The notes beneath the pieces are model-generated. The model did not search any database and was not told where the DNA came from. It worked only from the letters and a program-made list of their open reading frames with translations. The position numbers and the translations under genes are program-made. From the NCBI GenBank assembly GCA_001931905.2, contig MSJI02000912.1, forward strand, positions 1 to 64,000: DNA of 64,000 bases, written 5' to 3'. Shown in pieces: positions 19,172-64,000 of this stretch; position 1 is the first letter of the stretch, and each line of letters starts with the position of its first letter. The DNA is from Cladosporium sp. IMV 00045. Its lineage: Eukaryota; Ascomycota; Dothideomycetes; Cladosporiales; Cladosporiaceae.

Positions 19172-19275
19172 AGCCGAAGGTGGGGCTCGAACCCACGACC
19201 TTGAGGTTGTCTCTTGAATGAATACCATAGGCATCTTCTAAGAGCCACACGCTCTACCGATTGAGCTACCCCGGC
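19172..19275 (-). tRNA. tRNA-Lys (CTT) with a 31-nt intron
   Basis: The minus strand folds as a cloverleaf. The acceptor GCCGGGG pairs with CTTCGGC (two G-T pairs). The D arm is GCTC/GAGC, the T arm GTGGG TTCGAGC CCCAC, and the anticodon loop reads CTCTTA with anticodon CTT. The intron follows the base 3' of the anticodon, as in all eukaryotic tRNA introns, and contains CAAGAG, which can pair with the anticodon loop. The anticodon stem TGTGG/CCTCA has one T-T mismatch, which may indicate a weakened copy. The A and B box promoters are intact. Confidence 0.87.
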
Positions 19276-23247: not shown

Positions 23248-24313
23248 ATGTCCATGAATTCGAAAGCTCGTGTGGCCGCGTTGAGCGAGCAGCTCGTAAA
23301 GCCATTGAACCCTGCCGACCTCGGATCCTTTGAAGGAGTTCCCAACATCCCTACCATTGCGAAAGACACAGTAGGACCGTAAGTGTCGAGCAAAGTTGGG
23401 TGTGATGATCTCAGAGCTGACATCCATTCAGAAGCGTCAAAGACAAAGTCGTAGTCGTTACTGGTGCCAACTCGCCCAACGGCATCGGCCGGGCAACATC
23501 ACATCAATTCGCCCGCAACGGCGCCAAAGCGGTCTTCATTTGTGACTACAGAACTGATTTGCTGGATATCCATGCCCGCGAAATCAAAAGTTTGTATCCA
23601 AATGTTGAAGTGCACGCCCGGAGAGTCGATGCAGGCGAGGAAGCAGATGTCGAGAAACTCGTGAATGAGGTCTTGGAGAAGTATGGCCGGCTTGACATCT
23701 TCTTTGCGAATGCAGGCATCACCGCCGGTGCGGTGACGGTTTTGGATGCGACTGCGGACGATTTCATGAAGATCATGAAAACCAATGCATTAGGGTGAGA
23801 TTTTACCACGCTCTTCTGCTGTTCCAGCGCTGTTTTGTATTGACAGTGCACCGCAGCGTCTTCCTAGCGACCAAGCATGCTGCAAGAGGCATGCTGAAGA
23901 CATCCGACTCCAAACCATACCCTGCAGGTAGCATTGTCGCCACCGCCTCCGTAGCCGGTTTACGCTCCAATGCCGGCCCGACCGACTACTCGGCGTCCAA
24001 GGCCGCCGTCATCAGCATCATGCAGACTGCCGCCTTCCAGCTCACAGGAAAAGGCATTCGCTGTAACGCGGTATGCCCTGGACTCATCGAGACAGGCATG
24101 ACAAGCGAGGTGTACAATGCGGCGCGGAAAAGAGGCACTGAGAGGAAGCTGGGCCAGCTGAATCCGTTGGCAAGGGGTGGGATCGCTGATGAGATCGCGA
24201 GAGTGGTCGCTTTCTTGGGCAGTGACAGCGCGAGCTATGTGAATGGTCAGGCGTGGGCGGTAGATGGTGGATTGAGTGCTGGGCATCCTTTTGTACCGGG
24301 CAAGTTGGCTTGA
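23248..24313 (+). CDS. Short-chain dehydrogenase/reductase (SDR)
   Basis: This is a classical NAD(P)-dependent oxidoreductase of 316 residues. Three exons (23248-23378, 23432-23794, 23857-24313) are split by 53- and 62-bp introns. The Rossmann fold shows TGANSPNGIG (residues 54-63), an acidic CDYR after the second strand (cofactor choice), NAG at 137-139, catalytic Ser196, Tyr209 and Lys213 (YSASK), and the PG motif after strand 6. The C-terminus GQAWAVDGGLSAG is typical. A 45-residue N-terminal extension precedes the fold. The glycine loop is longer than the usual TGxxxGxG, as in SDR subgroups with an insertion there. The substrate cannot be read from sequence. No biosynthetic cluster surrounds it. 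Confidence 0.92.
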
Positions 24314-25452
24314 TGACTTGTAGATGCAGCTGTGTTTTGATGCGAAGGAGGCATAACGACGTACCAAAGTCTCACCATTCTTCTCTCAAACATGACAAGC
24401 AGCGACCGAATCTAGCGTTGAGGGTACTTGCGTGGATGTCCGACCAGACTCTGAGATTATCATCAACAATCGCAACTGATGTCTCCGCTACAAGTGAGGT
24501 GAAGATCTGAGCTCGATGCATTGCAAGATTATCACCGGGTTGAACCTTACAATGGTCGAGAGTGGGAATTCTAGACGCTCTGAGGACTGGGCGGTAGACT
24601 CTGAGGTGAGCATGTTCTGGAGATTTGGCTGCACTACCAAATGCTCATGCGACGTCAGCGGAACTGGCTGCTTGCCGACCACCACTTCGTTGCTGCATTT
24701 TCTCCATGAAGATCAAGTAAAGTTACCCTTCTGATGAGGCGTGGTCACTGTAAAAAATTCAAAGCGCGTAGATAAGGTCCCTCAGAGAGTGCTAACCCAT
24801 ATCTGCGATGCCTGGTTGCTGGGTGGGCTTCGTTAAAGCAAGTCACCAATCATCAGACAACTATGCAGTCAGGAGTTGTTCACCTAGTGCACCAAGGTGC
24901 TCCATTTCCAACCTTCCGAGGACTCCTGGATGTCGTGGGGGACTCTCTCGTGCAACTTCGTGTCCTCTACGAACAATGACTCGACACGGTCGAAGCAACC
25001 GAGTACCTGCTAATGACGGATGAAGATCAGATATGAATACTCGACAGATCTTGATTGTTCTCCTTTCGTATGGTTCCGATCGTCAGTCTGATTTTAACCT
25101 GATGTATTCGGATTTTCTCTCAGATCTTTCTCGACGCAAATAGCTGAAGTGATTGGGTTATTGAGTACCAAAAGAAACGAGCCTCACGTTTGTTTACAGT
25201 CTATTGGCCACTTGTATCTAGTCATCTGTGAATAGAGCTCTTTGCTTAAAGGCCACAGATCAACCTCAATGGCAACAAGATTCCCAAGTTTTCAGAATAT
25301 CGTTGAACCACACTTGATAATCTCTGTCTCGCGAGATTGAAGGGGCTGTTAAGGTGAGCATTCGATGTTGCTTCAAACATGTCTGTCAATTGTTAAGGAA
25401 TATGTTCAATCACGGTAGATCGGTCGTCATCAATCAACGCAGATCTTGCACC
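24314..25452. other. Intergenic region upstream of the initiator tRNA
   Basis: No open frame with family support and no RNA gene was recognised in this 1.1-kb stretch. Confidence 0.5.
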
Positions 25453-25590
25453 AGCTGAGTGGCGCAGCGGAAGCGTAAGTTCTTACTCAACAATTACCTT
25501 TGAATTGAATCAACACTAACAATCAAAAAGGCGCCGGGCTCATACATTGAAGCAACCCGGAGGGCAATGGATCGAAACCATTCTCAGCTA
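25453..25590 (+). tRNA. Initiator tRNA-Met (CAT) with a D-stem insert and a short anticodon intron
   Basis: After removing 25475-25530 (56 bp) and a 10-nt anticodon-loop intron (25545-25554), the 72-nt RNA pairs perfectly in all stems: AGCTGAG/CTCAGCT, GCGC/GCGC, CCGGG/CCCGG, AATGG/CCATT. Initiator marks are A1-T72, three G-C pairs at the base of the anticodon stem and the T loop ATCGAAA. Box A (TGGCGCAGCGG) and box B (GGATCGAAACC) are intact, and a T6 Pol III terminator starts at 25592. The large insert lies inside the 3' strand of the D stem, where no eukaryotic nuclear tRNA intron is expected. Confidence 0.88.
25475..25530 (+). other. Spliceosomal-type intron-like insert within the initiator tRNA
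   Basis: The insert begins GTAAGT, has CACTAAC 11 nt before its end and terminates in AAAAAG. Its 56-bp length equals that of mRNA introns in this window (many are 53-60 bp). Exact GT-to-AG removal restores the initiator sequence GGAAGCGCGCCGGG. Confidence 0.75.
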
Positions 25591-26962
25591 TCTTTTTTGT
25601 CGATTTTTGGTCCATCCAGAATGACTTTTGTCAAGATCAGTAATACATCTGTTTTTTTTTTTGCTATGCAGTATCCTCTCACTCAAACACAGTCAATAAG
25701 ACTTCTTTCCTTTCAAGTACTTTGTTCCTTTCATTCAAATCAAACCGAATGAGTGCTTGCCTGTTTTGTGCGGCCGAGGCTGGCGGAAGTGAAATTTCGG
25801 GCAGCGAACCCTCCACAGCAGCACAAGGCTTGCGGATCCGACAGAGTAGGTCACCAATTATACCGGAGAAGCAGGAAATTGAAGGCATATCTGAGCTAGG
25901 CACAATCCTTGTCATTTGTGCAATCTTATAGACATGCTACTTGAGTAAGATATCTGAACAACCACCACTAGTTCCGGAATTTGCAGTGATGTTTATATAA
26001 GTACATTTGAAAGCTAATTCCATTAGGTCCCCAGAACAGAGGCGAATGCATCATGCCTCTATCTTCAGCTAATACACATGCCAGTCAATTCTATGTCACG
26101 AGACTGCTAATCGTTGTCGATTCTTCAGATTTCAAAGATTGATAGACACTGAGTAGGTATTTAGCTTGATGTTCCGACTTTGATCGATTCATCGATCCAT
26201 TCGAACCGATCAATCTTGCAACGGCCTTGCGATTTCTCCTTCTGTTGGACTCATCTACATCACTTGGTCAAGAGTAGGGATCGGATAGCCTCGGCGGTCC
26301 GCACGTCGCTAGATTTGTTGTTTGCTACCGAAGGTACCGAAGACGAGCACTGTCAAGGTCAACTATGATAATTTCAGACAGATCTTTCTCTGGTCAATTT
26401 CTCTGGTCAAATTGTCTTGACAGTAGAATATTGCTGTGGTCTGACTACCAATACCACATAGCAGGATTACTCCATCAGTGGCACTTATCGAGCTCTCATG
26501 CATGCAACAAAGCAAAATATCATTGCTGCTGAAGGAAGTAACGACGACGAGCAATCGATCCTGAGAGTGACATGTAATCAACGACTTTTGAGAATGACCA
26601 AGGATCCAGCGTGGCGATGATGCCCACAATAACAATTATGCTTCCCGTGTATGTGATGTTGAAATGATACCGTCCTCGAGGTCCATGCTCACAGGTGGCG
26701 AGGGCTCTCTCCCCGCCAAGCCTTCTCTAGACCTTCTAGCAATCTCCTTTCCCTGAAGCCGAACTTTCGCGCGAGGGTCGTGTGCACTGCTTTGCTACTC
26801 CATAAGGTATCGTTATCTTTTTTTTCCCACTCTCCTAATCCATCCATCACTACCCTCTCGCCATCCTTTCGTTACTGTTCAGCGCTGTGCCTGGAGTTAG
26901 GTCGATGAGGCTTTTTTCTCCGCCATTTGTACTATTCTAATCCTTTACCCGGACTGTGCATC
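25591..26962. other. Intergenic region between the initiator tRNA and RPO41
   Basis: After the T6 terminator (25592-25597) there is no recognisable gene. The last few hundred bases are the RPO41 promoter and leader. Confidence 0.5.
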
Positions 26963-40559: not shown

Positions 40560-41649
40560 GGTTGTTGTGAGGGTTTGGTGTTTTGGGAGGTTGTGGGAGG
40601 TCGTGGGAGTGGTGGTTTGTTTGGTTGTTTCTAAGAGCTATCGCTCGGCTTGTGGTCGGGTGACGAATGGAGCTTGGGGGAGTTGGGTAAGCGAGTTTGG
40701 GTGGACCGAGCGTTGGAGGTCGGTTTGGGATTGGGACGAGGTCATCGGTGTCAGGGCATGGTTGAGCAAATACAACAAGCCTTTTTGTTGTTTTCTGGTG
40801 AATACCCGGCAGTCGTTTAATCAGGACTGTAACTACTTTGGCTATCGGTTTGCTACTGACTTGATTTCCTGCTGTGGTAGGAATACGATAGATTTTCATG
40901 TCCTTGCGATCGCGAAAGTTCAACAATTGCACAGCCGCTTCGATGCACGTTTCCGCGGGCTCATGGATCATTTGCGGAACTTTATGGGTGGCTAGTAATG
41001 TTGCCGGATATATCGGCGACACCACAAACTGTGCAGGGAGGGAAAGCAAGTTGTAACTAGAGAGGCTGCTTATCAAATGAGAGCTCTGGTGTGTGTGAAG
41101 ATAAAATGTTTGGCATGATTATTAAAAGCGTGCTATCAGGAATTGACCTTTTCATCCTTCATGGAAGATACACCATGAGCTAAAGTAAGAGCCTTTAGCT
41201 AACAAAATTAGAGACAGTGCCGGACAAGGGCTTTTCCATGTACACAGACTGCTCTTCCCATGTAGGTGCTGTGCATTCGATCCATGTCACTTCCTTCATT
41301 TGACCTCAATAGTCCGGGTGGTGAATGACCAGTCGTGCTTCCATACGACAAGCGGTTAGACTCGGCATCCGAAGGTAGAAACCATCCAAGTTCATGTCTT
41401 GGTCAGAGATCATGCCAGGACGTTGGAGATTGAAATAATTCCGAAGTCGGATGAGGCGGTCGCCTAAAGAACTTTCGTGGATTTCGAGTCTCGACAGCGC
41501 TCCGCACGATCAATGAAAAATTTTGGTCGTGGCCCTGCGGCTGGGACTTTGCGGTCGATTATGTTTTTTTTGTCCCGACAAGGGCAGCATCTGAGCTACG
41601 ACGACTGGCGTCACATGTGATTGCTGGTGGCGAGAGGCAGCAAAGAATC
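40560..41649. other. Intergenic region, no gene seen
   Basis: This is the promoter of the small mitochondrial gene and the 3' side of TMA16. Long frames on both strands here overlap the presequence exon out of frame and are not supported. Confidence 0.5.
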
Positions 41650-44789: not shown

Positions 44790-45224
44790 GGCGCGCTTGG
44801 GTGTTAACGCGGGTGACGAGGCGTATTGCTGGAATGTTGTATTACGATACCAAAGTAAAGTTTTGTCAAGCGCTGTATTGATCAATGTTGTTTGCGCTAC
44901 GTACTGAACGTTTCTTTTCCGATGACGTTTGGTCGGTCATCAATCTCGATCTCAAGAAAACATTGTGAATGAGATGCAGTGCAGGCATCTTCACCCTTGT
45001 GGATGGTGACAGCCCTAGAGCTTCACCCCCACACGCCCGGATCCACAAACGTCGGAGTCCCCAAGCTGCCCTGAACAGCACACGACATCAGGCATTCGTG
45101 CAATCAACGACGTACAGTCGTAAAGACGGACCACGAAGAAGCCTTTCAGTCGCTACCGCTCTGCCATCACACTATGAGCTAGATGAATCTCTAGGAGGCC
45201 GCAGCCTCGACGATATCGAAACAC
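44790..45224. other. EXO1 3' region and start of the duplicated segment
   Basis: From about 45019 the sequence matches 60631 onward (the copy upstream of the second transporter). This includes the CCTTTCAGTCGCTACC and CCTCGACGATATCGAAACAC stretches just before both start codons. Confidence 0.7.
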
Positions 45225-48200
45225 ATGGCTTCTTCTAAGACTCCCGCCAGCACTGGTGCAGCTGAAGCACCCAGATCATCGCCCAATGGCTCTTCTAGCC
45301 CAAGGTCTTCTTCAAGCGCTCATAGGAAATATACACCTGAGCTGGACTCGGAAGACGATGAAGGATCGTACGTGCTGGCGACCCCAGGGGAAGCGGAGGG
45401 TTATGAGATGAAAGAGTTGGGAGCTCGCAAGAAAGCGAATAGAACACAGGCTGTCGGCGGAGGGGAAGTCGAATCCGATTCGGAGGATGAGGATGGTATC
45501 TGGGTGGACAGAACACACTCTCGTCGAACGAGCATACAGTCTTTCGAGCTGTACACTCCAGATGAAGAACGAGGTGTGCGGCGGAAACTGGATACACATC
45601 TCGTCTTGTTCACCGCGCTGCTCTATATGCTGTCGTTTCTCGATCGCAGCAATATCGGCAATGCGAAGCTCGCCGGCCTCAAAGACGATCTAAACCTCTC
45701 CGATAGTCAATATGAATGGCTACTGACCGCCTTCTACATCATGTACATCTTATTCGAATGGATGACGATCATGTACCAGCTCGTGCCGCCGCACATATAC
45801 ATCGCCATCTGTGTCTGCGCTTGGGGCGTTCTAGCTTCTTTGCAAGCGTTGGCGACTAGCTGGGGTCACTTGATTGTTCTTCGAGCACTGCTGGGGATCG
45901 GTGAAGCCGCCTTTGTTGGCATTCCGATTTATCTATCATTCTTCTTCCGCCGTGAAGAGCTGGCTTTCAGAACTGGTCTGTTCATCTCCGCAGCTCCGCT
46001 GGCGACGAGCTTTGCAAGCAGTCTGGCTTGGGCTATCATAAAAATGGGCAACAAGACTGGAATCGCGAGCTGGCGGCTGCTTTTCCTCATTGAAGGATTC
46101 CCAGCTGTGCTAGTTGCGGTGATGTGCTACTACTGGCTCCCCGACTCACCGTCAGACGCGCGCTGGCTGACCAGCCGACAACGCAAGATCGCAACATTGC
46201 GCCTCCGCAAGGAGACAGACGATGGCAGCGCCGCCGGCAAAACCTCCTCCGTGCCACGCCACAAGAAGAAGTTCCAATGGCGCGAAGTGTTCAAAACCAT
46301 GCGCGACCCGAAGTCCTGGCTCGCCGCTCTGATGTTTTTCTGCTGCAACGTCGCTTTCAGCAGCATGCCCGTTTTCCTCCCCACGATCGTCAACTCCATG
46401 GGTTTCGACCCCGTTTCCTCGCAGGGACTCAGCGCGCCGCCTTTCCTGTTCGCTTTTGTCGTCGTTCTGCTCACTGCGTATCTATCCGATCGCATGCAAA
46501 GCCGCAGCATCCCCATGATCTTCCACGCGTCGATGGCGTTTGGTGGGTACTTGTTCTTGTCCGTCGCGGGTTCTCTGAAAGTGCAAAGCCATGTGCTGCG
46601 ATATCTGGCCGTCTACCCGATCTGTTCTGGTTTCTTCTCCGCCGTCACGGTTATTATCACCTGGACGCTGAACAATCAGGCTTCAGACGAGGGCAAGAGC
46701 ACTGGCATCGCTGTCATGAACATTGTTGGGCAAATGGGTCCTCTGGTAGGGACTAGGCTGTACCCTGATGCTGAGGGACCGTACTTTGTCAAGGGCATGT
46801 CGGTTTGTGCGGTTTCCATGGGTATGGTGGCGATTCTTGCGTTTGCGCTGAGAGTTGTGCTTTCTCGGGAGAATGCGCGGAGGGTTGGACGCTGGAAAGA
46901 GGCGGAGGGCGAAGGTCTTGTTGGGGGAGATGCGCAGGCGAAGGAGTTCGTGTATATGTTGTAGAAGCCCTCCGAAATTATCGTCGCCGTTTTGCTCGAA
47001 ACATCTTCATCCAGGCGCTGGCGTTGATGGTGCGAATGGCCTTGCTTGGCCGTCTTGGTCGAATAAGTATTCGAATTCCAGGTCGTCGTTCATCCAAGTA
47101 CTCCAATCAAATTCGCCAGGGGTTATATCATCCAATGGGAAGATACTGCCTGTAGGTTGAGAGATTCCACTTGCCGGTGTAGGCATAAAAGAACCAGTGG
47201 CTTCTGCTTGCACGTCGATTGTTGCATTGACCGTAGGATCATGTGGCTCTTTGAACAGTTCATTTGGATCTCGCGGCGGGTAGGATGCTGCATTGCCAAG
47301 ACGGATGTTGCAGGGTGTGCTGTCGCTCACAAACTTAGCAACCCAAAGAGAATTGGGCACAATTTCTTTTGGTGGAGGATACTGGAACTCCGGAAACTCG
47401 CCCTTGATTGAATTTGGGGAGTGCTTTCTTCGCTCTTGCTGCTGCTGCTGCGAGCAGACCCAGGTCGCTGTATGAGGCAAGTCGTACAGCATAGTGGACG
47501 TTTCGTCCCCTCCCGTGCATGGATAAGGACTTGCCTCGGGTTGCAGCGCTGAAACATCAGGAGTCGCATCGAATCGAAGTACCGGAGCGGCGTCATCGAA
47601 GCAGTCCGACTGATCATGTCGCTGCCGCTTGGCCGCTACCTCGCTAAGAGACGAATCACTCCGAGCATCGTCTTTGCAAAGGATCTCAGATGGCGTATAT
47701 TCCGTGAGGCGAGTGTAGTCAGACGGCATGGCGCTTGTAGATTTCGAATAGATGGGTGTTGACTCTGGCAGTCGCACGTTTGCGACATTCCGGCAATTCA
47801 CTGACAGCGGGGTGAGATAGTCGTTTGAGGCAAGGCTTGCAACACTCGGTGCATGCCGCTTAAGGCGTCGGACTAATGCCTGTTTAAGCGGCACTCTTGC
47901 AATCAACAATTCTTCCAAAGTGTGCCTCAGTATGTCCAAGATTTCTTCTTGTTGCTGCCGCCAACTCCCAAGTGCGAGCTTGAGCTCTCTCTCAACGTCC
48001 TGGTCTGATTCTGGACCTGTCTCGGGTTTGAGGTCAGGACAAGCGGCTTTTTCAGGCACCTGCAACGATTTTTTCCTCTTGCAATTGCGTTGCCCTCTAT
48101 GTTCTACAACATTGCCCATTTCGAGCGCTGTAACATGTCAGCGACTAGGTTCAGATAATGAGTCTGTCGTAAAACTTCACTCTTTGAAGGGAACCCGAGC

Positions 48201-57172: not shown

Positions 57173-59239
57173 CTAGTCGTCGTAGATGAAGATCGCGCCT
57201 CCCCCCTCCCCAATTGAGGCTTGGACATCAGGCGCGTCAGCCTTGGAGCGTTTCTGCGCCGTTTCCATGCCTTCGTCGAGCTCGCGCTTGCGTTTCTCGC
57301 CGAGGCCGTCGGTGTTGGGCGTGCTGTCGTCCTGCAAACGGTGGCCGTTCGACGTCGGCGTCGCCTGTGCCTGTGTCTTCTGAGGCGCCTCGTCGAGGGG
57401 GATGATGTCAATGTCGTCGATGTCGGCGTGCGCGTTGATGTCGTCGGCGGTGACTTCTGGCTTGGGCTTTTGCGGGATCTGGAGGTCTGCGAGTTCGATT
57501 TGGGGAGAGCCGAAGTCTTCCAGGTGGGGCGTGGTGGTGAGGACGAGGTCGACGCGGGGTTCGTCGCTGTCGTCGCTGACGGTGATGAAGTCGCTGCTTG
57601 AGAGGCTGACTCCCAGCTCGGAGAGGGGGCGGTCGAGGTTCTCTTCGAGGTCTGGGTCGTAGATGATGCCGACGCTGGTGGAGATGGAGAGCTCCTCGCG
57701 GTTGTATTTGAGGGTCGTTTCCAATTCTGAGACGAGCTCCGATACGGTTGGCGAGGATTGCTTTGGCATGCGGAGACGGGCGTAAATCGGTGAGCAGACT
57801 GGGCAACGGGGATTGGGAGGGTGGAGTTTCTCGCTGGTGATGACTCGTTCTGTGCTTCTTGAGTTGAGAAAGACCATTCTCGATCCGCCGAGAGGGGGGT
57901 CGTCTTTCCCTGACAAGGTGACGGTTGGAAGGCTGTTGTTCGCGGTGGGCTTCGCCATGGCGTCACTCTTGCCGGTCTGGCTCTTCAAAACCTTGAACGA
58001 TTGCATGACCGAGAGACTGGCAGTGAGGGCGTTTGAAGTTGCGATAGCTGGGATGATATTGCCTGCCATCTGCTTGATTTCCCACTCGCTGTTGGTGGGG
58101 ATGCCGAAGATGTGTGACCTCAGATTGGCCGCTGAAGAGACGAAGTCCAAGGTATCCTTGTCGTCCTTGTCGAAATCGATCGTCTGCTCACCCGCCTGGA
58201 CGCGACTGCTGAGAATGTCCAAACTGTAACAGAAGACTGCCAAGTTCTCTTCAACAGACCAGACTCTCTGGTCTTGTACCGCGAGAGTCTGACCTACCTT
58301 AACAAGATCCGTGTCCGCTTTCAGGTCGTCGAATTTGAGAGACTCTGGCGGAGAGCGACTCTGCCACATTTCTGTCATTGATCGCAAGCGCTCAACATCA
58401 TCGTGGAAGACCTTGTCGAAAACAGCCTGCGCGAATTCGCTTGTGCCCATCAAGCTGCGGATCTTTTTCAATGCCTGTGCCTCTTCCCTAAGCTTGATAA
58501 CCTCTTCCGCGTTGTCGGCATCTGTGACTGCCACATCTGACGAGTCTTCCTCGCTTGTGCCAAAAAGCTCCGGGAAAAGATAAGACTTCGCCCAGACAAT
58601 GCAGTGAATAGGCTGGGATGGTGTGGATCTGATTGTGCAGATTGGGAAGCTCTTTTGCACAGGCTTTGCGTTGCAGTCGTAGCATTCGGTGACTCCTTTT
58701 TGGATGGCCTGGACCTGTCCGTTGAAGCCAGTGGTTCCGCTTTCGATCAGAGGAACATTGGCTGCCAGACACATGCGGTTGACGTGCTGTCGAGCCTTGA
58801 GGTTGTCCAGCGCATTGAAAACAATATCGAATCCAGCGTAGAAGTCGACATTATACTGTGCGTCGAAGATGTTGCCGTGATGAGCCTCGATGTTTGCCGC
58901 CTGATTGAACTGCCTCGCTGTTTCCTTCGCGACAATCGCCTTAGGCTTCTTGATGTGTTGCTTCCTGAAGAGGAATTGGCGATTGAGGTTGCTCAAGTCG
59001 ATGGTGTCCAGATCCACGAGAACGATGCCAGGTGCGCGCGCGAGAAGGGTAGGAACGAGCGCCTCCTCACTTGAATCGTTTGACTGAGTGTATCCCGTTC
59101 CGAAACCCGAGCAGACCAGATTCTTGAGGAGCTCGCAGCCAATGCCTCCTGCGCCAACCACCAGCACCCTGCTATCTTTGACGCGCTTTGCGAGCGGTAG
59201 ACCGAGCGCCTGGACCATACCGCGGTCTCTCTTCTGCAT
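57173..59239 (-). CDS. UBA2: SUMO-activating enzyme subunit 2 (E1)
   Basis: UBA2, with AOS1, adenylates SUMO and takes it as a thioester before passing it to UBC9 in the nucleus. An intronless 688-residue frame starts at MQKRDRGMVQALGL, matching the family N-terminus. It has the nucleotide loop VVGAGGIGCELLKN (27-40), DLDTIDLSNLNRQFLFR (77-92), zinc ligands CYDC (186-189) paired with RCPVC later, and the catalytic Cys201 in FPICTIRSTPSQPIHCIVWA. A C-terminal ubiquitin-like domain and a KRKRELDEGMETAQKRSK nuclear signal follow. A roughly 20-residue insert after residue 48 lies in a loop that varies in fungi. The frame stays open upstream into the N gap, but that part is not UBA2. Confidence 0.96.
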   Translation of the reverse strand: MQKRDRGMVQALGLPLAKRVKDSRVLVVGAGGIGCELLKNLVCSGFGTGYTQSNDSSEEALVPTLLARAPGIVLVDLDTIDLSNLNRQFLFRKQHIKKPKAIVAKETARQFNQAANIEAHHGNIFDAQYNVDFYAGFDIVFNALDNLKARQHVNRMCLAANVPLIESGTTGFNGQVQAIQKGVTECYDCNAKPVQKSFPICTIRSTPSQPIHCIVWAKSYLFPELFGTSEEDSSDVAVTDADNAEEVIKLREEAQALKKIRSLMGTSEFAQAVFDKVFHDDVERLRSMTEMWQSRSPPESLKFDDLKADTDLVKVGQTLAVQDQRVWSVEENLAVFCYSLDILSSRVQAGEQTIDFDKDDKDTLDFVSSAANLRSHIFGIPTNSEWEIKQMAGNIIPAIATSNALTASLSVMQSFKVLKSQTGKSDAMAKPTANNSLPTVTLSGKDDPPLGGSRMVFLNSRSTERVITSEKLHPPNPRCPVCSPIYARLRMPKQSSPTVSELVSELETTLKYNREELSISTSVGIIYDPDLEENLDRPLSELGVSLSSSDFITVSDDSDEPRVDLVLTTTPHLEDFGSPQIELADLQIPQKPKPEVTADDINAHADIDDIDIIPLDEAPQKTQAQATPTSNGHRLQDDSTPNTDGLGEKRKRELDEGMETAQKRSKADAPDVQASIGEGGGAIFIYDD

Positions 59240-59924
59240 GTTGGGCGGAGTTCTGATTTTGGTGGTGTTGAATCGGGGTATCGACTGGAGGGTTGCGCGA
59301 AGGCGAGGCGAGGATGTTTCCAGCGATGTTTCCAGCGCGCGCGGACACAATGATTGAGGTAGGGGTGCCGGCGCAAGGGTTGCACGTGATAGCACGAGTG
59401 AAGNNNNNNNNNNNNNNNNNNNNCCCTCTCTCCATGCTCTCTCGACTCTGAACCCAAATCGATGGTTGATAAGGCTGAGCTCGGTGTTGGAGAGCGGATC
59501 GAGGTCGTCGATGACTAGGTAGACTGGACTGTGTGATTTTTGGAATCTCATGAATTAGTGGCGGCGTATATCCCTGTCGATACACTGGACTGTTTTTGTT
59601 CTTTAAGAGAGTTCGTTCAGCTTGACAAAAAGCTCGAAGAGATTTGATGTTGATGTCCAAAAAGGGACTTGTCTGTACTCAGCTCATCCAGAGAGTGGTT
59701 TTCTACTCGATAAACAAGCTTGGTTCACGGGAGAAGGGGTCCTCGAATATTTCAAACGCTGAAATGGTAGTATGGTGTTATCGATCGACCGTTGTTGAAA
59801 AGACTCCCCCTCGTGAGACTGTCGCTCGTCATGCTCGTGTTGCGCTACCGTAGAGCAGGCATAGAACATGAATTTATAATGTTTGCACCTGCTGCTCACA
59901 TCATCAATTCCTTTGATAAGACCT
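59240..59924. other. UBA2 promoter region with assembly gap
   Basis: This contains the 20-N run at 59404-59423. No gene is supported. A 128-bp open stretch beyond the gap (59424-59551, minus) does not resemble UBA2. Confidence 0.5.
59404..59423. other. Assembly gap (20 N)
   Basis: Twenty N bases; the true length of the missing sequence is unknown. Confidence 0.99.
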
Positions 59925-59999: not shown

Positions 60000-60838
60000 T
60001 ATTCTTTTGCTTTTGTCCCCGTCTGTCGAGACTTGTATCGAATGCCTCCAGGTAACGGATCAAGATCTGTTTGTCGAGACCAGAACAGTCTCGTAATCGA
60101 GACCGGATCTGATGCTATTCTGGTTCGATCTCATGCAATTCATTGGTGGATGACTTCAAGGGTCAATCGTTCATGGAGCTCGTAGTCTGTCTCACTACAG
60201 GCCCGCGGCATGATGTACACGTGGTTACGTTTGCCCACAGGGCCAAAGGGAACACCAAACGTTCTCCAATGGCCAAGACAAACCGGACCCGCAAGACCTC
60301 GAGGAATTTCCTTTACCCAGCAGGGAATATGTTGACTTCCATGTTCGAAGATTTCGGGGCCAGCAGCCAACAGTACTTCCCATCTGTGAGCTGAATCCAA
60401 TGATTGATTGCGAGTTCCGAGAGACTATTGATGGCAGTACGCGAATCGCCATCTCTGTTCTCTTGCGAGCACATCAGGACGTATCATAGAATCAATCGCA
60501 AGACAAAAGTTACTTCAATCCGGAGTAGTCGCACGACTTTTCGTCGAGTATCTCGTGTGAGCGATGCCGATGACTTTAGAGGATCATTTTGCTCGTATGC
60601 ATGTCGTCTCCCTTTGATGAGCCCTACGCGTGAAGCTTCACCCCACATGCCCGGCTCCACAAACGTCGTAGTCCTCCAGCTGCCATCAACAGCACACGAC
60701 ATAAGGTATTCGTGCATCCAACGCCGTACACTCGTAAAGACAGACCCCGAAGAAGCCTTTCAGTCGCTACCGTCCTGCCATCACGCTATGAGCTAGATGA
60801 AGTGATAAGAGGCTGCAGCCTCGACGATATCGAAACAC
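60000..60838. other. Intergenic region; duplicated segment starts near 60631
   Basis: No gene is seen. From 60631 on the sequence is homologous to 45019-45224. Confidence 0.6.
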
Positions 60839-62578
60839 ATGGCTTCTTCTAAAACTCCTGTCAGCACTGGTGCAGCTGAAGCATCCCGAACATCGCCCAA
60901 TGGCTCCTCTAGCCCAAGATCGTCCTCTAGCCCTCGTAGGAAATATACGCCTGAGCTGGACTCGGAGGACGATGAAGGGTCGTACGTGCTAGCGACCCCA
61001 GGGGAAGCGGAGGGTTATGAGATGAAAGAGTTGGGCGCTCGCAAAACAGGAAGCAGAACACAGGCTGTTGGCGGAGGGGAAGTGGAATCCGATTCGGAGG
61101 ATGAGGATGGCATCTGGGTGGACAGGACACACTCGCGTCGAACGAGCATACAGTCTTTCGAGCTCTACACGCCAGACGAAGAACGAGGTGTGAGGCGGAA
61201 ACTGGACACCCACCTTGTCTTGTTCACCGCGCTTCTTTACATGCTCTCGTTCCTCGATCGCAGCAATATCGGCAACGCGAAGCTGGCCGGCCTGAAAGAT
61301 GACCTCAGCCTAACCGACAGCCAGTACGAATGGCTACTGACCGCCTTCTACATCATGTACATCTTATTCGAATGGATGACGATCATGTACCAGCTGGTGC
61401 CGCCGCATATATATATCGCCATCTGCGTCTGCGCTTGGGGCGTGCTGGCTTCATTGCAGGCATTGGCGACTAGTTGGGGACACTTGATTGTTCTTCGAGC
61501 ACTGCTGGGAATTGGTGAAGCTGCCTTTGTCGGCATTCCAATTTATCTATCTTTCTTCTTCCGTCGTGAAGAACTGGCTTTCAGGACTGGTCTGTTCATC
61601 TCCGCAGCTCCTTTGGCGACGAGTTTTGCGAGCAGTCTGGCTTGGGCTATTATAAAGATGGGAAACAAGACTGGCATCGCGAGCTGGAGACTACTTTTCC
61701 TCATTGAAGGATTTCCAGCTGTGCTAGTTGCAGTGATGTGCTACTACTGGCTCCCAGACTCACCCTCAGACGCGCGCTGGCTGACCAGCCGACAACGCAA
61801 GATCGCAACATTGCGCCTCCGCAAGGAAACGGACGATGGGAGCGCCGCAGGCAAAAACGCCACCCTGCCACGCCACAAGAAGAAGTTCCAATGGCGCGAA
61901 GTGCTCAAAACCATGCGCGACCCGAAGTCCTGGCTCGCCGCTCTGATGTTCTTCTGCTGCAACGTCGCTTTCAGCAGCATGCCCGTCTTCCTCCCCACGA
62001 TCGTCAACTCCATGGGTTTCGACCCCGTTTCCTCGCAAGGACTCAGCGCACCGCCTTTCCTCTTCGCTTTTGTCGTCGTTCTGCTCACTGCGTATCTATC
62101 CGACCGCATGCAAAGCCGCAGCATCCCCATGATCTTCCACGCGTCCATGGCGTTTGGCGGGTACTTGTTCTTGTCCGTGGCGGGGTCTCTGAAAGTGCAA
62201 AGCCACGTGCTGCGGTATCTCGCCGTCTACCCGATCTGTTCGGGTTTCTTCTCCGCCGTTACGGTTATTAATACCTGGACTCTGAACAATCAGGCATCAG
62301 ACGAGGGGAAGAGCACCGGCATCGCGGTCATGAACATTGTCGGGCAAATGGGTCCTCTGGCCGGGACTAGATTGTACCCCGATGCCGAGGGGCCGTACTT
62401 CGTCAAGGGTATGTCGGTTTGTGCCATTTCGATGGGCATGGTGGCGGTTCTTGCGTTTGCGCTGAGGGTTGTGCTTTCTCGGGAGAATGCGCGGAGGGTT
62501 GGACGTTGGAAAGAGGCGGAGGGTGAAGGCCTTGTTGGGGGAGATGCGCAGGCGAAGGAGTTCGTGTATATGATATAG
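60839..62578 (+). CDS. MFS transporter, anion:cation symporter (ACS/Dal5-like), copy B
   Basis: This intronless 579-residue paralog of the transporter at 45225 has no length difference. All ACS motifs are kept (LDRSNIGNAKLAGL, GIGEAAFVGIPIYLSFF, WLPDSPSDARW). By hand comparison 20 residues differ. Eight of these fall in the hydrophilic N-terminal tail and four in the cytosolic loop after the sixth helix (KNATLPRH instead of KTSSVPRH). Membrane helices are almost unchanged; one notable change is Ile to Asn in VTVINTWTLNN. Both copies look functional. The 30-bp gap to the convergent factor gene mirrors copy A. Confidence 0.95.
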   Translation: MASSKTPVSTGAAEASRTSPNGSSSPRSSSSPRRKYTPELDSEDDEGSYVLATPGEAEGYEMKELGARKTGSRTQAVGGGEVESDSEDEDGIWVDRTHSRRTSIQSFELYTPDEERGVRRKLDTHLVLFTALLYMLSFLDRSNIGNAKLAGLKDDLSLTDSQYEWLLTAFYIMYILFEWMTIMYQLVPPHIYIAICVCAWGVLASLQALATSWGHLIVLRALLGIGEAAFVGIPIYLSFFFRREELAFRTGLFISAAPLATSFASSLAWAIIKMGNKTGIASWRLLFLIEGFPAVLVAVMCYYWLPDSPSDARWLTSRQRKIATLRLRKETDDGSAAGKNATLPRHKKKFQWREVLKTMRDPKSWLAALMFFCCNVAFSSMPVFLPTIVNSMGFDPVSSQGLSAPPFLFAFVVVLLTAYLSDRMQSRSIPMIFHASMAFGGYLFLSVAGSLKVQSHVLRYLAVYPICSGFFSAVTVINTWTLNNQASDEGKSTGIAVMNIVGQMGPLAGTRLYPDAEGPYFVKGMSVCAISMGMVAVLAFALRVVLSRENARRVGRWKEAEGEGLVGGDAQAKEFVYMI

Positions 62579-62607
62579 GAGCGTCTCAAATTCATCGTCA
62601 GTATATT

Positions 62608-64000
62608 TCACGTTGGCATTTGCCATCCAGGCGCTGGCGTCGATGAGTCGAATGGCCCTGCTTGGTCGTCTCGGCCAAAAGAGTAAACGGGATCTACATC
62701 GTCGGGCTGCATCCAAGAGCTCCAGTCGATCTCACCAGGTACATCGCTGGACTGGAAGCTACTGCTCGTAGGTTGAGAGCTTCCGCTTGCCGCTGCCTGC
62801 GTATAGGTACCCAGTGTCTCTGCGTGACGATCGATGGTTGCCTCGGGCGCAGAATTGTGCAAGTGTTGGAACAATATATGTGAATGTTGTAGCGAGGAAA
62901 CTGGTGCATTACCAGGAGGGGCATCAGAAATCACCCCACCAGTCTTCACCTCGTTCATTCGCCGAGAACTGAGCCTAGTCTCATTTAGAAGAGAACTCGA
63001 AGTCTGCGGCAGCTCGCCTCCCATTGAATTTTGAAAACGTTGTAGTTGCTGCTGCTGCTGCGGCGGCGGGCAGGCTGATATCTTCGTCTGAGGCATGTTG
63101 TCCGCAACAATGGGCGTGTCGACCTCCCGCGCCTGTGGATCTGAACTCGGGCTGAGTTGAGTGGCTGAACTATGAGGTGGCATATCACGTGGGAGTGATG
63201 GAGCCAAATCGTTGAAGCAATCTGACTGGGTAGGAGCTGCCATTTCAAAATGGTTGTGTCGCTGACGTTTGGCTGTTGGCTCGCCGAAAAGATATGAAAC
63301 GCTCCGAGCATTGACTCCCACAGGGTTTGCATATAATGGAGGCTCTGTAGCGCCAGTATGCTCTGATGACAAAGTGTTTGTAGAGGTCGAATCGTTCGAT
63401 GACGACTCTGATGTTCCTGCATTTGCGGTATGCTGACGGTCCATCGACATCGGAGTTTGACTGTTTCCTGAAATAAGGTCCAGAACACCTGGCACATGTC
63501 GCTCGATGCGACGAAGTAGTGCCGGCGTGGGTGGCACGCTTGCTCTCAGCAATTCTTCCAGAGCGTGCCTTAGTATGTCCATGATTTCGATATTCTCTTG
63601 CCTGCAGCTTTCAAGTTTACGCTCCAGACTCTTTTCAGTGTGCTGGCATGCCCTCAGGCTTGCTTCAAGTTCGACATTGGCGCGAGCAGCATCCTCAGCA
63701 ACAACCTCAAAAGCTTTTCTCGTGGAATTGCGTTGCCCTCTGTGCTTTACCACCTCAGCGCGCTCAAGTACTGTAGCATGTCAGCGACTGGATATCTGAG
63801 AATGAATGGTCCGTGATACACACTTAATTGAGGAACATCGAGAAGACGGCAAAGGTAAGTGAGCTCGCTTTGCTTACGATCATGAGATGATGGACTGCAA
63901 GATCCTAGTTCGACATGCCTTGGGTCATTACCAGGCAAATTCGCGGGCGCATTCTTGCATACTGGCACAACGCAGTAGAACCTGTCGCAATCATGATTCT
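62608..64000 (-). CDS. C2H2-type transcription factor, copy B (5' part beyond window)
   Basis: This is the paralog of the factor at 47007-49616, truncated by the window edge. Two exons are visible: 63824-64000 (partial) and 62608-63770, with a 53-bp intron. The first reads NHDCDRFYCVVPVCKNAP and then SHDRKQSELTYLCRLLDVPQ, matching copy A. The second contains AEVVKHRGQRNSTRKA, a long charged helix (ANVELEASLRACQHTEKSLE) that is longer than in copy A, IMDILRHALEELL, a Gln tract and the acidic end GEIDWSSWMQPDDVDPVYSF. The C-terminus has four extra residues after PAPG (WQMPT in place of the copy A stop). The zinc fingers should lie beyond position 64000. Divergence from copy A is far greater than for the neighbouring transporter. 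Confidence 0.85.

Follow-up and report, generated by a model that had tools for sequence, protein, structure and literature searches.

Can an intron of the messenger RNA type reside in a nuclear tRNA gene and, if so, would its removal depend on the spliceosome? The question is raised by a short locus in a contig of Cladosporium sp. IMV 00045 (MSJI02000912.1), in which an initiator tRNA-Met gene had been predicted to be interrupted in its D stem by an insert with mRNA-type splice signals. The window referred to below is the whole stretch of 64,000 nucleotides that was analysed. The observation is confirmed, the insert being both real and unusual. Direct reading bears out a 56-nt sequence, GTAAGT...CACTAACAATCAAAAAG, which splits the 3' strand of the D stem, contains CACTAAC, ends in AAAAAG and is followed from exon 2 onward by GCGCCGGGCTCATA (Table 1). 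Two details required correction. CTAAC does lie near the end of the insert, but 10 nt follow it instead of the 11 originally given; and removal of the 56 nt does recreate the initiator tRNA, but not by itself, as a second intron of 10 nt in the anticodon loop, absent from the original description, must also be taken out. The sequence of exon 1 is the same in all five intron-bearing loci described below and in the intact gene L008.

Table 1 Features of the interrupted initiator tRNA gene (window coordinates) and of the U6 gene of the same genome (contig coordinates).
Feature	Position	Strand	Remarks
TCATCA, possible upstream (start-site) element	25427-25432	+	Putative function, based on motif enrichment near tRNA genes
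Exon 1	25453-25474	+	Acceptor 5' strand, A box, D arm through position 23
A box TGGCGCAGCGG	25460-25470	+	Inside exon 1
mRNA-type intron, 56 nt, at tRNA 23/24	25475-25530	+	GTAAGT donor, ACTAAC branch, AAG acceptor
Exon 2, 14 nt	25531-25544	+	Remaining D stem, anticodon stem 5' strand, anticodon CAT, A37
Second intron CATTGAAGCA, 10 nt	25545-25554	+	Anticodon loop, 3' of A37, canonical place; non-GT-AG
Exon 3	25555-25590	+	Anticodon stem 3' strand, T arm, acceptor 3' strand
B box GGATCGAAACC	25569-25579	+	In T arm of exon 3
T6 run, Pol III terminator-like	25593-25598	+	3' of gene, after TC
U6 snRNA gene (L218)	G000 C83, about 41434-41600	-	One copy found in genome

The gene lies in about 2.6 kb (24313-26909) without any ORF of at least 200 codons, where shorter genes are possible, and the GC content of the window is near 52%. 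In the window, the interrupted gene was recognised neither by Rfam nor by ARAGORN, which in the same run also missed an intron-bearing tRNA gene at 19172-19275 that Rfam found. Elsewhere in the window there is a duplicated gene pair: two near-identical transporter-like ORFs of 589 aa each (45195-48137 and 60809-63780), both with a related ORF behind them on the opposite strand. The translation of another ORF (57173-59554, minus strand) contains a short run of X residues at about 59400, which therefore stem from masked or unresolved assembly bases.

The assembly (49.9 Mb in 954 contigs) was searched with the whole gene as query and with its last 22 nt, allowing up to 3 mismatches, and both searches led to the same eight places with the 3' half of an initiator gene. 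That these are eight independent genes was rejected: positions 1-19315 of C454 match the end of C102 at 99.9% identity from contig end to contig end, with 14 mismatches and 3 gaps. Because of this 19.3-kb overlap, L003 and L004 were taken as one locus, although a recent duplication is also conceivable, and the merged set comprises seven loci. An mRNA-type intron is present in the D-arm region of five of the seven, each of which also has an intron in the anticodon loop. The D-arm-region intron is located between tRNA positions 23 and 24 in L001, the copy in the window, and in L002 (56 nt in both), and between positions 26 and 27 in L005 (69 nt), L006 (83 nt) and L007 (58 nt). The anticodon-loop introns are 10, 12, 20, 20 and 17 nt long in L001, L002, L005, L006 and L007, respectively. 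L001 and L002, L005 and L007, and L008 and L003 are homoeologous pairs, and the paired loci sit in stretches that are present twice in the genome at 87-92% identity; a homoeologue of L006 was not found in this genome. Since five loci are interrupted and four of them form two homoeologous pairs, one aberrant copy or a misassembly was rejected as an explanation.

Initiator tRNAs are marked by A54 and by three terminal G:C pairs in the anticodon stem. The two loci with neither intron differ in their state. L008 is intact, scores 64.6 bits in Rfam and carries A1:T72, A54 and three G:C pairs closing the anticodon stem; the spliced sequence of the interrupted genes, read by eye, likewise has A1:T72, a CAT anticodon, A54 and the three anticodon-stem G:C pairs. 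Regarding other intact initiator genes, a point raised with the original prediction, one intact intronless copy (L008) exists, but its homoeologue L003 (C454:5583-5653, identical with L004 on C102) has a D arm altered to GCGCAGC-AAAAG-GCGCC. This arm is without G18G19 and has one broken D-stem pair, and the score is 48.6 bits against 64.6 for L008. Outside the D arm the gene is unchanged, indicating that L003 was either recently damaged or is still somewhat in use. The AAAAG before GCGCC resembles the final intron bases of L001 and L002 and is perhaps a scar of intron loss. The altered arm has two possible origins: either a deletion left the final 5 nt of an intron of the 23/24 type in place, or an intronless gene acquired two substitutions plus a deletion. 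Only L008 and the altered L003 are recognised by Rfam among the seven initiator loci, and standard tools would thus miss genes of the interrupted kind. A genome-wide Rfam tRNA search that scored 63 of 1428 candidates is no census, because L008 was not among the matches listed.

When the GT-AG intron and the anticodon-loop intron are both removed, the same 72 nt remain in all five loci, identical to L008; the pattern used in the script demanded the exons, and this is hence a plain yes/no test. At each D-arm-region boundary the cut can shift by 1 nt, since a G there may be assigned to either side; the GT-AG cut is one of two equivalent cuts, with an identical product either way. With introns allowed, ARAGORN assigned four of the five precursors to other tRNAs and found none in the fifth, and it reported tRNA-Ala for all five D-spliced forms, placing the second intron otherwise, while the L008 and L003 sequences were identified as tRNA-Met. 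The second intron was kept in the anticodon loop, against the placing by ARAGORN, because the resulting sequence equals L008. In canonical tRNA introns, the third base before the intron end is one that C32 can pair with. In all five genes the second intron starts one nucleotide 3' of the anticodon, and the third base from its 3' end is a G that is able to pair with C32. Minimum-energy folding gave no cloverleaf, even for the intact L008, and folding was therefore not used as evidence.

The D-arm-region introns carry the donors GTAAGT (L001 and L002), GTATGT (L005 and L007) and GTAAGC (L006), so that the consensus GTRWGT, taken from fungal U3 introns, is matched exactly in four of five. The branch motif is ACTAAC in L001 and L002 and ACTAAT in the other three, matching RCTRAY in every case, and it stands 10-11 nt from the intron end in all five, which is within the fungal range of 6-36 nt. 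All five introns end in AG, with the acceptor AAG in L001, L002, L006 and L007 and TAG, the only YAG, in L005. Fungal U3 introns mostly have a GTRWGT donor, an RCTRAY branch and, with one exception, a YAG acceptor (PMC5832005), which makes the AAG acceptors an unusual feature. By simple arithmetic with equal base frequencies, a random insert would start with GTRNGY, end in AG and hold CTAAY 9-13 nt from its end about once in 400,000. The pattern thus appears to be more than chance, and it recurs at a second tRNA site with an unrelated intron sequence.

Introns at the same site are clearly related, as none of 1000 shuffles was as good. L001 and L002 agree at 51 of 56 intron positions, with donor, branch and AG all kept, and the three 26/27 introns have common ends and an 18-mer, GAATGATTACTAATCCGA, that spans the branch. 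Exact genome matches of this 18-mer occur at the three 26/27 introns only; with 3 mismatches there are 13 further matches, equal to the 13 obtained with a reversed control. Between the 23/24 and the 26/27 introns no similarity was detected in six comparisons, in which 148-590 of 1000 shuffles were as good. As the two insertion sites hold introns without detectable similarity, the sequences suggest two separate intron gains within a few bases, although one gain followed by sliding and divergence is also conceivable. No related introns were found outside the initiator loci by a short-sequence search of low sensitivity, which failed to link even the related L005 and L006 introns, and the introner-like origin that had been considered is unsupported.

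The promoter and terminator features are those of Pol III genes. In line with the original description of both Pol III boxes and a T6 terminator, an A box, a B box and a 3' T run, with no inner terminator, are present in all five intron-bearing loci, and a T6 or T7 run lies two bases 3' of each gene. No T run inside these genes exceeds T3; however, this avoidance is no discriminating sign of Pol III, because TTTT occurs in just 2 of the 21 candidates for mRNA introns that were collected from the window in a crude list, some of them certainly false. The motif TCATC occurs within 35 nt upstream of all five intron-bearing initiator genes, and of 12 of 24 other recognised tRNA genes, against 11 of 120 distant windows; upstream of tRNA genes it is perhaps a start-site element. 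L008 and L003 are without upstream TCATC and have a TATA-like stretch at -38 instead. In addition, the U6 snRNA gene (Table 1) contains a 59-nt intron, GTAAGT...GCTAACC...CAG, between CAATTTGA and AACAATACAGAGA; a Pol III gene with an mRNA-type intron therefore exists in the same genome. The U6 intron has an A-box-like TTAGCCCAGTGG directly 3' of the donor and may therefore hold part of the Pol III promoter. The idea that an mRNA-type intron has entered a tRNA gene and may need the spliceosome is supported by the five of seven initiator loci and by this U6 gene.

For comparison with other tRNA genes, 100 of the 879 B-box matches in the genome were fetched (L223-L322), a sample that leaves out genes with another B box, such as the initiator itself. 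Genes were recognised by T stem, acceptor stem and A box, the start being permitted anywhere within 250 nt 5' of the B box. Among the 100 places, 24 tRNA genes were recognised, none of which has a D-arm intron; 22 of the 24 exceed the plain tRNA length through anticodon introns or long variable arms. Many of the sampled genes carry anticodon-loop introns of 15-30 nt, the genome being rich in tRNA introns. The remaining 76 places were unrecognised, most of them looking like chance matches. Two of the sampled places (L266 and L267, on C74 near 4911 and 13666) are similar, with A-box-like and B-box-like parts, a good T stem and an unmatched acceptor stem; they look tRNA-like and would represent a tRNA relic or a repeat. 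Within this limited sample size, the D-arm-region intron looks special to the initiator. The matches listed for a 16-nt initiator motif in contigs of viruses and prokaryotes, 194 stretches, showed no tRNA gene; 7 of them have a T-arm-like word nearby, all unrelated by eye.

Taken together, the five interrupted loci are probably working Pol III initiator tRNA genes in whose D-arm region spliceosomal introns have settled, a reading drawn from sequence comparison. Most likely, the spliceosome would remove the D-arm-region intron and the tRNA endonuclease the intron of the anticodon loop. We infer that transcription of the precursor by Pol III would be directed by the internal A and B boxes and would end at the T run. 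The spliceosome would recognise GTAAGT or GTATGT (GTAAGC in one copy), the ACTAAC or ACTAAT branch and the AG 10-11 nt further on, and would join the two halves of the D-arm region; tRNA endonuclease and ligase would then excise the anticodon-loop intron, giving a presumably functional initiator tRNA. Intronless L008 could supply such tRNA, at least in its half of the genome, while in the half with the altered L003 every intact initiator gene may be intron-bearing. It is about as likely as not that most of the initiator tRNA would be processed first by the spliceosome and next by the tRNA endonuclease, which would make the start of protein synthesis dependent on mRNA-type splicing.

The intron-bearing copies might instead be dead or silent, with L008 as the sole supplier of initiator tRNA. 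L008 is indeed intact and intronless, L003 is a damaged copy that persists, and short D-arm or T-arm insertions in eukaryotic tRNA genes mostly affect one of many synonymous genes and are mostly taken for pseudogenes (PMC4090602), whereas here five of seven copies carry inserts. Against silence, the exons show no change in the five loci despite diverged flanks: over 100-1000 nt on each side, flank identity is 82-83% for L001/L002 and 84-89% for L005/L007, and at these rates the chance of 72 unchanged positions is about 1e-6 for the former pair and 4e-6 to 2e-4 for the latter. Exchange between copies could also have kept the exons alike, and because L003 is unchanged elsewhere despite its D-arm change, unchanged exons alone are no proof of use. 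The splice signals, moreover, are kept while the rest of the introns changes, and, provided that the assembly is complete, L003's half of the genome would possess no copy that is both intact and free of introns. Since the exons stay unchanged while introns and flanks diverge, the earlier suggestion that the insert blocks the gene is unlikely, and silence of all interrupted copies is very improbable.

The working genes could also dispense with the spliceosome if both introns were cut by the tRNA endonuclease, as in archaea, the red alga C. merolae and nucleomorphs, the GT-AG ends being coincidental. Archaeal introns cut in this way are known at positions such as 22/23 and 25/26 (PMC4090602), and the D-arm-region junctions pair partially, with scores, of 10 tested, of 7 in L007, 6 in L005, 5 in L006 and 4 each in L001 and L002. 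Yet a complete bulge-helix-bulge is present in none of the five, a test of little power because the canonical anticodon introns score just 3-5 of 10, and the L001 score was reached by 232 of 2000 shuffled introns (L001 alone was shuffled). Such cutting does not predict that donor, branch and AG are kept at two sites, and it is about as improbable as silent copies. The least probable account is that the tRNA-like sequence belongs to a non-coding Pol II transcript from which the intron is removed as usual and no tRNA is made. Spliceosomes do normally act on Pol II transcripts, and the surroundings free of long ORFs would suit one. However, the unpaired loci differ in their surroundings and yet have in common the tRNA, the upstream motif and the directly adjoining T6-7; the spliced product is a complete initiator tRNA; and U6 demonstrates, within the same genome, that genes transcribed by Pol III can hold an mRNA-type intron. 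Spliceosomal introns in Pol III-transcribed initiator genes are the preferred reading.

If this reading is true, the spliceosome is open to tRNA precursors, a single short transcript is processed by two splicing systems, and translation initiation is tied to splicing; the paired gene copies would then serve as a natural experiment on intron gain and loss in structured RNAs. Searches of the open-licence literature yielded no description of spliceosomal introns in nuclear tRNA genes, while for several structured RNAs, including U6 and U3, mRNA-type introns are already on record. Nuclear tRNA introns adjoin the anticodon, as the original prediction stated, as a general rule and not universally, for exceptions are described in nucleomorphs and C. 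merolae (PMC4090602). These non-canonical tRNA introns and those of archaea resemble the present ones in their D-arm-region location, frequently alongside a canonical intron, but in archaea and C. merolae they are described as forming a bulge-helix-bulge that is cut by the tRNA endonuclease (PMC4090602 and PMC3978253), whereas here GT, branch and AG are kept without a complete motif of that kind. The program tRNAscan-SE 2.0 seeks non-canonical introns in archaeal tRNAs (PMC8450103).

Other structured RNAs provide parallels for the type of intron. Ascomycete rRNA genes and a yeast U2 gene are transcribed by other polymerases. Both harbour spliceosomal introns and are likewise structured non-coding hosts, but their RNAs are other ones (as cited in PMC2586383). 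According to PMC5832005, U3 and U6 were so far the sole small structured RNAs for which frequent interruption by an intron was known. Fungal U3 snoRNA genes are alike in holding short canonical introns within a structured RNA; intron-containing and intronless copies coexist in some genomes, and sliding of the intron position is reported for Dothideomycetes. The RNA, however, is another, and the U3 acceptors are almost only YAG, against AAG in four of the five introns here (PMC5832005). Fungal U6 genes with mRNA-type introns, those of fission yeast among them (Tani and Ohshima 1989 and Canzler 2016, as cited in PMC5832005), share with the present case GT-AG ends and a branch site in a short structured Pol III RNA, and do so in this very genome. 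In the initiator genes, by contrast, the interrupted RNA is a tRNA whose promoter boxes are internal; the interruption affects five of the seven copies, each of which carries a second intron of a different type.
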